From the NCBI RefSeq assembly GCF_023213175.1, contig NZ_CP093312.1, forward strand, positions 1,984,001 through 2,048,000: DNA of 64,000 nucleotides. Reading direction: 5' to 3'. Below the pieces are notes generated by a model, which worked only from the letters and a program-made list of their open reading frames with translations, was not told where the DNA came from and ran no database searches. This DNA comes from Sulfurovum sp. XGS-02 (GTDB lineage: Bacteria > Campylobacterota > Campylobacteria > Campylobacterales > Sulfurovaceae). A program made the position numbers and the translations under genes. Below are positions 17,288 through 55,191 of the stretch, one piece after another. How positions within the stretch are numbered: the first letter of the stretch is position 1; every line of letters begins with the position of its first letter.

Positions 17288-17899
17288 TTAAAAGTTATAA
17301 GAGAGACCAACTGTCCAAGCGTCTGCATCTACATCTGAAGTCTGTGCTCTATAGCCAAATCCTGTATCATCATACAAAGATACATAATCAGCAAAGATAG
17401 AAATCTCTTCTGTGAATGCATAACTTGCTCCAACTCCCCACTGGAACCCACCTTCCACGGCGTCACCGCCTGCAAGATCGTCAAGCATCACTTCACCATA
17501 TCCCAAAAGCGCATAGAGTGAGAACTCTCCGATCGGATACATAGGTTTAACATAAACTCCCCAAGTAGATACATCACCATCATAAGCATTTGCCACATTT
17601 GTCAAATTCCCTGCATCATAATCTGAATCTCCCAAACCAAATGAATAACGACCTTCAAAAGCCAGATATTCATTGACTTGATAACCTGCTTGAATCATTA
17701 AGGTTGTTGAAGATATTTCTTCATCAGTGGTATCATTATTCACAGATACTTCACCTAGACCAAATCCTGCATAAAAAGGATTTACTTCAACCTCTGGTAT
17801 TTCAACAACAGGCTCTACAACTTTCGTCATATCACCACCCGCATAAGCCATTCCGCTTAGTGCCATAATGGACACAAGAGATACAATACTCTTTTTCAT
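17288..17899 (-). CDS. Outer-membrane beta-barrel protein (OmpA/OmpW-like size)
   Basis: A 203-aa outer-membrane protein. The start is placed at 17899 because AAGGGAAG precedes that ATG and a signal peptide (MKKSIVSLVSIMALSGMAYA) follows directly; a longer frame to 17986 would run into the structured RNA. The mature end begins AGGDMTKVVEPVVEIP, almost the same motif as in the porin at 483-1709. The rest shows about eight amphipathic strands with turns rich in Asp/Gly and ends WTVGLSYNF, with the terminal Phe needed for BAM. It is cotranscribed with the lipoprotein gene. A c-di-GMP-responsive surface role is inferred from the leader. Confidence 0.82.
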   Translation of the reverse strand: MKKSIVSLVSIMALSGMAYAGGDMTKVVEPVVEIPEVEVNPFYAGFGLGEVSVNNDTTDEEISSTTLMIQAGYQVNEYLAFEGRYSFGLGDSDYDAGNLTNVANAYDGDVSTWGVYVKPMYPIGEFSLYALLGYGEVMLDDLAGGDAVEGGFQWGVGASYAFTEEISIFADYVSLYDDTGFGYRAQTSDVDADAWTVGLSYNF

Positions 17900-17930: not shown

Positions 17931-18029
17931 TTGTGTAACCTGGCGGTCTTTTCATCTACTATAGAGTTACAGTATCCAAGATCCATGGCTTTCTGGCCCT
18001 ACCTCACGATAGGTGTAGCATTTATACAA
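17931..18029 (-). ncRNA. Structured RNA leader, probable c-di-GMP-I (GEMM) riboswitch, copy 1
   Basis: Read on the minus strand, the element opens with TTGT, pairing with ACAA at its end (P1). A stem CCUAUC/GGUAGG capped by GUGA follows, then the core GGGCCAGAAAGCCAUGG. A second stem UCUU...AAGA encloses a variable apical hairpin (UACUGU/AUAGUA). It closes with CGCCAGGUUACA. This order matches the class I c-di-GMP aptamer: GNRA stem, AAAGCC, then GCCAGGUU. The junction before the first stem (GCUACACC) differs from the common GCAAACC, so ligand identity needs testing. Thirty bases separate it from the outer-membrane protein start codon. That is short for a terminator, so translational control is likelier. 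Confidence 0.7.
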
Positions 18030-18081
18030 AATAAACATTTTATTATAATTTGAATTTTTAAAAAATATATCCCAATATTTT

Positions 18082-52638: not shown

Positions 52639-52713
52639 GGCCCCATCGTCTAGCGGTTAGGATCCATGGTTTTCATCCATGTTACCGGAGTTCGAGTCTC
52701 CGTGGGGTCACCA
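52639..52713 (+). tRNA. tRNA-Glu (TTC), copy 1
   Basis: A 75-base cloverleaf with encoded CCA. Acceptor GGCCCCA/TGGGGTC pairs with one G-U, the anticodon is TTC within TTTTCAT, and the T-loop is TTCGAGT. It is identical to the second copy over all 75 bases. Confidence 0.97.
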
Positions 52714-52743: not shown

Positions 52744-52818
52744 GGCCCCATCGTCTAGCGGTTAGGATCCATGGTTTTCATCCATGTTACCGGAGTTCGA
52801 GTCTCCGTGGGGTCACCA
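52744..52818 (+). tRNA. tRNA-Glu (TTC), copy 2
   Basis: Identical to copy 1 and 105 bases downstream in the same direction, with 30 unrelated bases between. The flanks do not match, so only the tRNA itself has been kept or converted. TTC reads GAA and GAG. Confidence 0.97.
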
Positions 52819-52889: not shown

Positions 52890-54797
52890 TCATAACGCTA
52901 AATCATCAACACTGTTCAAAGTTTTCTTACGGTTCGCTTCTAAGAATAGGGTTTCAAATGCCTCATCACTCACGGGTTCTGAGAAATAATATCCCTGTAA
53001 AATATCGCATTTTTGATCTACAATGAACTGGCGCTGCTCTTCATTTTCGATCCCCTCTGCAACGATCCTTAAGTTGAGGTTTTGAGCTATGGTAAAGATC
53101 GTTTGAACAAAACATTTATCTTCCTCGTCCTCAAGATGATGCAATTCAGAGATGAATGATTTGTCGATCTTGATCTCATTGATAGGTAACTGCCGGAGAT
53201 AACTCAAAGAGGAGTATCCCGTTCCAAAATCATCCATCGAAAAATGAATACCGTAATCCTGAAGGATCTTCATGTTTGTAATCAGTTTTGCTATATCCTC
53301 TGCAACGGAAGTCTCTGTAATCTCAAAGACTATTTTTGCGCGTTGTTCTTTTGTAAGATACGTGTCACAAAGATGTTTCACATCGTTAATAAAATGATAA
53401 TGAAAGAGTTGTCGCATGCTGACGTTAATAGATATCTGTTGTAGAGAAATACCCTTCTCTTCCCACTTTTTAAATGTAAGAAAGGCCTCTTTTAATATGT
53501 AGAATCCCAACTCTATAATGAATCCCGTTTTTTCAGAGATCGGTATAAATTCAGTCGGACTGACCTCTCCTAAGGTTTCGTTATCCCAACGTGAAAGGAC
53601 TTCACAACCGATAATTTCATTCTCAGCATTATACTGTGGCTGGTAGGTCAATGATATTTCGTTCCTTTGAAGCGAGAAGTGCAATAAACGTTCTATCTCA
53701 AGTTTCCATTCGACATGTTTTGCAAGTGTGTCATTGAAGAAAATAATGCCGTTTCTTCCCCTTCCTTTAGCCTCATACATAGCGATATCCGCTTCTTTGA
53801 TAAAGTTACTGGCTTCTATTTTCGGATCACTGATGATACTCACACCGATACTGGCACTGATATATAAATAATGCTCTTCTATATGGTAGCTTTCTCTGAT
53901 CGATGCCAGCAACTCCTCTGCAAACTGGGATGCATGATGAAGACACTCCAGTTCCGTTGCAAATGTAGTACTGAGAATACAAAACTCATCCCCGCCAAGA
54001 CGGGATACAAAGTTTTGATGCTTTTTACTAAGTGTACGCATACGGTCCGCTGCTTGACAAAGCAGCATATCCCCGATATCATGGCCCAAAGTATCGTTAA
54101 TGGTCTTAAAATGATCAAGATCGATCAATAACAGATAAATATGTTTATGATCCTGTTTTTGGCTTTTCATAGCGTCATTCAGGAGTTCGATAAAGTAGCG
54201 TCTATTCCCCAGTGTCGTCAAAGCATCATGATACGCCTGGAATTGACTTTTAATAAGATAATTAAAGGTATTGTTCGCAGCATAAAGTAAAACACCGCCC
54301 AAAACGATCGTAAAAAAAGCTAGTAGATAACTGTAGAACTCACCTACCAAGATAAAATAGATGGTCAAAGGGAGCATAAGTGTGACCAAAGTAAACACAG
54401 CCAACTTTTTTTGAGAGGCTAAAATGGTCGTCGAGACAACAGTAACTCCCAATTGTGTTGCTATGGCCACATAATGTAACTCTGTATCACTGCGTGATGT
54501 GTATATCAGAAACATGATAGTCCAAACAGAAAAATAACTGAATAAAAAATATCTCAGTTGCCCAAGCCATTGCTCTTTTTGTTGCATATTAAGATCATTC
54601 TCTAAAAAGTTCTTATGCAATCGATATCCCCAAAAAGAGAGTAACAATACCAGAGAAAACCATAAGAGTTCAGGAAGAGAAGAAGAAGAGTAGAGCCATC
54701 CGATATAAAGATACCCTATACCGGTTCCTGCAAATAGTGCTATCACCACAAGTATCTGTTTGTGCATAAAATCATAAAAGTGCATATTATCAAGCAT
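52890..54797 (-). CDS. Membrane GGDEF-EAL protein (c-di-GMP synthesis/breakdown)
   Basis: A 635-aa c-di-GMP turnover protein. About six membrane helices fill residues 13-175, a sensor or anchor unlike MHYT or MASE domains I can name. The GGDEF domain (about 188-360) has an intact RLGGDEF (268-272) and no RxxD inhibitory site, so a cyclase is possible. The EAL domain (about 370-625) reads EVL at 399-401 and keeps ISINVSMRQL, FEITETS, MDDFGTGYSSL, IKIDKSF and VAEGIE, so a phosphodiesterase is likely. The ATG follows AAGG. A c-di-GMP-I-like RNA lies 40 bases before the start, so the enzyme may be controlled by its own metabolite. It ends 72 bases from the tRNA-Glu pair. Confidence 0.93.
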   Translation of the reverse strand: MLDNMHFYDFMHKQILVVIALFAGTGIGYLYIGWLYSSSSLPELLWFSLVLLLSFWGYRLHKNFLENDLNMQQKEQWLGQLRYFLFSYFSVWTIMFLIYTSRSDTELHYVAIATQLGVTVVSTTILASQKKLAVFTLVTLMLPLTIYFILVGEFYSYLLAFFTIVLGGVLLYAANNTFNYLIKSQFQAYHDALTTLGNRRYFIELLNDAMKSQKQDHKHIYLLLIDLDHFKTINDTLGHDIGDMLLCQAADRMRTLSKKHQNFVSRLGGDEFCILSTTFATELECLHHASQFAEELLASIRESYHIEEHYLYISASIGVSIISDPKIEASNFIKEADIAMYEAKGRGRNGIIFFNDTLAKHVEWKLEIERLLHFSLQRNEISLTYQPQYNAENEIIGCEVLSRWDNETLGEVSPTEFIPISEKTGFIIELGFYILKEAFLTFKKWEEKGISLQQISINVSMRQLFHYHFINDVKHLCDTYLTKEQRAKIVFEITETSVAEDIAKLITNMKILQDYGIHFSMDDFGTGYSSLSYLRQLPINEIKIDKSFISELHHLEDEEDKCFVQTIFTIAQNLNLRIVAEGIENEEQRQFIVDQKCDILQGYYFSEPVSDEAFETLFLEANRKKTLNSVDDLAL

Positions 54798-54837
54798 GGC
54801 ATACCTTAAAATAGTTCTGTAAGCGTTGTTCTACTGA

Positions 54838-54937
54838 TTGTGTGACCTGGCGATCTTTTCATCATTCTATACAATAGTGTATCCAAGACCCATAGCTTTC
54901 TGGCCCTGTCTCACGACAGGTGTAGCATTTTTACAAA
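54838..54937 (-). ncRNA. Structured RNA leader, probable c-di-GMP-I (GEMM) riboswitch, copy 2
   Basis: Read on the minus strand it has the same parts as copy 1: TTGT/ACAA closing stem, CCUGUC/GACAGG stem with GUGA loop, core GGGCCAGAAAGCUAUGG, a GUCUU...AAGAUC stem enclosing the hairpin AUACA/UGUAU, and GCCAGGUCACA at the end. Between the copies the first stem changes A-U-type pairs to G-C-type ones with partner changes, and the apical hairpin is different in sequence but still paired. The core GCUAUGGGUC here is closer to the usual class I c-di-GMP sequence than copy 1. It lies 40 bases before a GGDEF-EAL gene. The rest of the gap (54938-55115) is AT-rich without genes. Confidence 0.75.
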
Positions 54938-55115
54938 AGTATCATGTATTATAAATCATTTAGATTAAATTAATATGATAATTCTAAACATAATTCATTA
55001 TATTTACTTATGTTACTTTTAGGGTATCAAAAATGTTTCAATCAATGAATACATAGCCTATTTTAGCATATTTTAGATGGGTTAGAAAAGAGTATGGGGT
55101 TTATTGCATGTAGTT

Positions 55116-55191
55116 TGGTGGAGCATAACGGGATCGAACCGATGACCTCTTCGCTGCCAGCGAAGCGCTCTCCCAGCTGAGCTAATGCCCC
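55116..55191 (-). tRNA. tRNA-Ala (GGC)
   Basis: A 76-base cloverleaf with encoded CCA. The anticodon stem CTTCG/CGAAG holds loop CTGGCAG with anticodon GGC, which reads GCC and GCU. The T-loop is TTCGATC. The acceptor GGGGCAT/ATGCTCC includes a G-U pair. Confidence 0.96.

Follow-up and report, generated by a model that had tools for sequence, protein, structure and literature searches.

The leader of a membrane GGDEF-EAL enzyme gene in Sulfurovum sp. XGS-02 carries a class I c-di-GMP riboswitch, and we consider it highly probable that this RNA senses c-di-GMP and controls the enzyme, both the binding and the control being predicted from sequence. A cmscan search (Rfam 15) over the window, i.e., the whole 64-kb stretch of DNA that was analyzed, places a match to c-di-GMP-I (RF01051) at 54838-54936 on the minus strand. 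The match scores 44.4 bits against a gathering threshold of 35 (E = 2e-5), and its alignment spans the full model, positions 1-87. The features of the aptamer and its gene are as follows.

54838..54936, minus strand: c-di-GMP-I aptamer (P2, P3 and core), from the RF01051 match and alignment
54926 (G20), 54899 (A47) and 54842 (C92), minus strand: ligand-contact bases, read from the alignment
54924 (U22) with 54901 (A45), 54922 (C24) with 54903 (C43), and 54902 (C44), minus strand: junction bases, from the alignment
52890..54797, minus strand: membrane GGDEF-EAL protein gene (635 aa) downstream of the riboswitch (Pfam GGDEF 148.2 bits, EAL 206.5 bits)

The original prediction had placed a c-di-GMP-I-like riboswitch before this gene and proposed a covariance-model check with RF01051. 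The significant match bears out that identification, and the coordinates first given for the aptamer are correct to within one base. In addition, the elements from which it had been recognized, namely, a GNRA-capped stem, a GAAAGC-UAUGGGUC block and a 3' GCCAGGUC block, are all present, with P2 capped by a GUGA loop.

The 2.19-Mb single-contig genome holds 21 RF01051 matches, all over the cut-off, and the aptamer before the GGDEF-EAL gene has the lowest score among them. A search of 14 control genomes with the same model gave no match over the cut-off. Since 21 such matches occur here and none in the controls, and since the leaders of orthologous genes keep the element, the match stands above chance, and the sequence evidence confirms that the element truly belongs to the class I c-di-GMP riboswitches.

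The GGDEF-EAL protein is 91% identical to its homologue in Sulfurovum sp. AR, and the next relatives are mostly from Sulfurovum and Sulfurimonas. We compared six orthologous leaders (this genome, Sulfurovum sp. AR, G028, G029, G075 and G076). Common to all six are a TATAAT box, the aptamer core, the spacing, the P1 strands (in a shifted register in one leader, L182, as judged by eye) and an AAGG motif, while the P3 tip, linker and flanks drift. Within the genus, the aptamer is kept before GGDEF-EAL orthologs at 87-91% identity (six, including those of five other genomes). Among orthologs at 66-78% identity, no aptamer was seen in up to 1.5 kb of flanking sequence (the G008 gene is a fragment), a distribution that would fit either one gain or one loss of the riboswitch near the root of the ortholog group. 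Because these orthologs lack it, the riboswitch loop would not be essential to the enzyme. The next best protein matches, near 50% identity, are probably paralogs. This conservation also bears on whether the aptamer has decayed and no longer binds a ligand, as its lowest score in the genome and weak P1 might suggest. We regard decay as very unlikely, given that every contact base is kept, that the base changes are compensated and that core, TATAAT box and spacing hold across six genomes in which the P3 tip and flanks do not.

The aptamer is predicted to bind c-di-GMP. In Vc2, the ligand contacts are G20, A47 and C92 (PMC4744006; PMC3764141), and these bases are unchanged in 21 of 21 aptamers of this genome. 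The cGAMP-linked change in class I aptamers is G20A (PMC6274999). The numbering was checked by aligning aptamers of a Geobacteraceae genome to RF01051, in which L218-L220 have A20 and L216 has G20. The alignment therefore separates the two kinds, and it assigns the RNA at 54838-54936 to the c-di-GMP kind.

It had also been suggested that the unusual junction marks a variant with an altered ligand, for example cGAMP. That suggestion fails at position 20, since G20 is kept and GEMM-Ib needs A20, as found in the cGAMP-type Geobacteraceae aptamers; the odd bases U22 and C24 lie at compensated, non-contact positions. The junction bases U22, C24 and C43, together with the existence of a coupled C24/Y43 subtype (described below), would favor an aptamer for cGAMP or another cyclic dinucleotide, but the genes behind the subtype are of the same surface and membrane kinds as those behind ordinary aptamers. 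The GGDEF domain, moreover, still has the N and D of FKxINDxxGHxxGD, and is thus presumably unlike a hybrid cGAMP cyclase. Tandem pairs that combine a C24 with an A24 aptamer would be an argument for a shared ligand; none turned up among the loci compared. From the aligned bases, an altered ligand appears unlikely, and we give a switch to another cyclic dinucleotide only the slimmest of chances.

In Vc2 numbering, the junction GCUACACC reads G20 C21 U22 A23 C24 A25 C26 C27. It departs from the consensus twice, at U22, which pairs with A45, and at C24, which is coupled to C43; neither base contacts the ligand. C22 and G45 are counted as highly conserved (PMC3764141), and the present aptamer has U and A, paired, in their place. 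Since the same study leaves positions 24 and 43 outside the highly conserved set (PMC3764141), tolerance at these positions is not new. Over 102 distinct aptamers, the 22/45 pair is C-G in 71, U-A in 30 and U-G in 1. In the same set, A24 is accompanied by A or G at position 43 in 72/72 cases and C24 by C or U in 30/30 (Fisher p 2e-26, which is overstated because the sequences are related). No description of this coupling was found in open papers.

The C24/Y43 form combines with both 22-45 pairs, has C or U at position 43 and stands before several unrelated genes. It is present in 21 of 78 Sulfurovum genomes and in one genome of a sister genus, to which, within the samples searched, it appears to be confined. 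Across 38 genomes from the order of a Geobacteraceae genome, all of about 150 aptamers listed have A24 with A or G at position 43, bar two chance matches (by eye). Three C24 aptamers (L139, L142 and L178) precede a conserved gene for a protein of about 440 aa, whose first 300 residues gave no Pfam match. It is conceivable, if rather doubtful, that C24/Y43 constitutes a distinct Sulfurovum subclass with its own affinity or kinetics, giving two c-di-GMP thresholds across the set of 21 riboswitches, one member of which would feed back on a c-di-GMP enzyme.

The original prediction did not include a second aptamer in the window, whose core is nearly identical to that of the first and whose score is slightly higher (46.3 vs 44.4 bits).

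17931..18029, minus strand: second c-di-GMP-I aptamer, same C24/C43 subtype, from the RF01051 match and alignment
17288..17899, minus strand: outer-membrane beta-barrel protein gene behind the second aptamer (Pfam OMP_b-brl 75.5 bits)
18042..18047, minus strand: TATAAT, probable -10 box of the second leader, from the sequence

This aptamer precedes the outer-membrane protein gene and a small lipoprotein gene, and the arrangement has an orthologous counterpart in L181 and, in part, in L168. A tRNA gene precedes each of the two window aptamers. For the first, co-transcription with the upstream tRNA-Ala gene (55116-55191) was considered and rejected, since each window aptamer has its own TATAAT. 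Because of these boxes, and because the 3 kb of sequence covered at L166, the genome's third C24 aptamer, contain no tRNA, we take the tRNA genes ahead of both window aptamers to be a coincidence.

The features that bear on the mode of control of the GGDEF-EAL gene are the following.

54832..54941, minus strand: aptamer including the predicted P1 closing helix, from a duplex fold
54941-54938 (UACU) with 54835-54832 (AGUA), and 54936-54933 (UUGU) with 54841-54838 (ACAA), minus strand: P1 strands, with a small internal loop between the two parts
54948..54953, minus strand: TATAAT, probable -10 box, from the sequence and invariant in the six leaders
54804..54807, minus strand: AAGG, probable ribosome binding site, from the sequence and invariant in the six leaders

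Given the TATAAT at 54948-54953, the predicted transcript start is at about 54941, the first base of P1 (UACU). A generic promoter scan did not return this box, because no -35 match was found. P1 is short, A-U rich and interrupted by the internal loop, with a duplex energy of -4.2 kcal/mol. When P1 strands were compared with shuffled partners over the 21 aptamers, a strand's own partner was better, and 15 of 1000 shuffles were equally good, so that the locus-specific fit is only modest. The aptamer ends 40 nt before the gene, and 45 nt separate C92 from the AUG.

In the proposed mechanism, transcription would begin at the aptamer's own promoter, on the first base of P1, and the GUGA loop and a C44-G83 pair would hold P2 and P3 against each other. 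This inter-helix pair is predicted from the c-di-GMP-I family; the alignment positions C44 at 54902 and G83 as the G of GCC at 54851. G20 and C92 would flank the ligand and A47 would stack between the two ligand bases; binding would fix P1 and thereby alter how accessible the ribosome binding site, some 35 nt downstream, is.

For that last step, we folded the six leaders with and without a forced P1 and found no consistent difference in access to the ribosome binding site. Since predicted access is nearly equal in the free and P1-closed folds, the computation does not bear out the translational step, and translational control of the gene is a guess that we adopt by default. No terminator-like site was found in the leader. 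In this leader the linker AUCAG pairs with the beginning of the coding sequence, but the pairing was discarded because it is broken in the other leaders (by eye). Altogether, these folds leave room for a true c-di-GMP aptamer that acts through Rho-dependent termination, through RNA decay or through a long-range helix in which J1/2 pairs with the coding start, instead of local masking of the ribosome site, a reading that overlaps our preferred explanation in all but the last step. The absence of both a terminator-like site and clear masking fits it, as do unconstrained folds, which in 5 of 6 leaders have the 5' P1 strand and J1/2 paired with the beginning of the coding sequence. However, L182 does not keep this long-range helix, and the two strands of the helix are under constraint anyway (from the aptamer and the protein). 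We judge such an output somewhat less than evenly likely.

By either route, the predicted riboswitch would act on a gene in which the GGDEF and the EAL domain both seem to have intact active-site motifs. The GGDEF domain is without an RxxD inhibition site, and the EAL domain has the expected motifs. Since a class I aptamer lies in the leader of such a gene, coupling of its expression to c-di-GMP is the natural reading, and class I aptamers before cyclase and phosphodiesterase genes have been described previously (PMC3971182). From its domains, the protein could have cyclase activity, phosphodiesterase activity or both. The earlier proposal that expression depends on the enzyme's own product therefore stands as to dependence on c-di-GMP, and is uncertain in the word "product", since with both kinds of domain c-di-GMP could be product or substrate. 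We infer from the sequence that a feedback loop may exist, and it could be positive or negative. Two tRNA-Glu genes, identical over the Rfam-aligned stretch, lie at 52639-52713 and 52744-52818 on the plus strand, convergent with the GGDEF-EAL gene.

Across the genus, 72 of 78 Sulfurovum genomes have at least one c-di-GMP-I aptamer; in the phylum, 42 of 397 sampled genomes carry RF01051 aptamers, 10 of these 42 being within Sulfurovum. Eight of the 21 aptamers form four tandem pairs, 147-221 nt apart. The genes behind the 21 encode DUF4382 lipoproteins, an S8-type protease (by eye), PAS proteins, a histidine kinase, an ABC transporter, a YkuD protein, an outer-membrane protein and the GGDEF-EAL protein, which is the usual range for the class.

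Several other members of the set have features of their own. Two neighboring DUF4382-type lipoprotein genes (L003 and L005, genome ~1209353-1210949, minus strand) each have a tandem aptamer pair before them, and between the aptamers of one pair lies a terminator-like hairpin followed by a T run (AACAATACCCGTGTATTGTTGTGCTTTTT). The L007 aptamer (1501-1627; genome 246570-246696) has two alternative 3' halves, GAAAGTCGGGTTGCATC and AGATAGCCGGGTTACC, and is scored by RF01051 at 56.8 bits in a 76-nt form and 60.9 bits in a 127-nt form, possibly reflecting two competing P3 partners. Another aptamer (L019, 1501-1575) is followed after about 250 nt by a gene resembling threonine synthase (by eye), which is an unusual c-di-GMP target.

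Class I aptamers before c-di-GMP turnover genes are already known, as is their presence in many copies per genome in Geobacter, with 17 class I riboswitches in G. sulfurreducens (PMC8835794). For Campylobacter jejuni and its relatives, a lack of metabolite riboswitches has been stressed (PMC3847290). No description of the Sulfurovum set was found in the open papers searched. The additions made here are this large set and the coupled C24/Y43 subtype. With 21 aptamers in 2.2 Mb, riboswitch control of c-di-GMP signaling is placed in Sulfurovum (Campylobacterota) on a Geobacter-like scale. Feedback on a c-di-GMP turnover gene would provide a simple circuit that lends itself to testing. The coupled exchange at 24 and 43, in turn, amounts to a natural experiment on one core layer of an RNA fold that has been studied in depth.

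Compared with c-di-GMP-I/GEMM-I (RF01051) as represented by Vc2 and Vc1 of V. cholerae, the aptamer before the GGDEF-EAL gene shares the P2/P3 architecture, the GNRA loop, G20, A47 and C92, the bases C44 and G83, and the position in a 5' leader. It differs from them in having U22-A45 for C22-G45, C24/C43 for A24/A43, a GUGA loop, a long P3 tip and a weak P1. The c-di-GMP-I-GGC family (RF03167), of the same clan, also aligns end to end, but this identity was ruled out, the score being 45.7 bits in a small search against a gathering threshold of 59 and the model having G where this RNA has A47. Finally, GEMM-Ib (cGAMP) of Geobacter has the same fold and a similar helix at 21-22/45-46, and differs in carrying A20 where the Sulfurovum aptamer carries G20.
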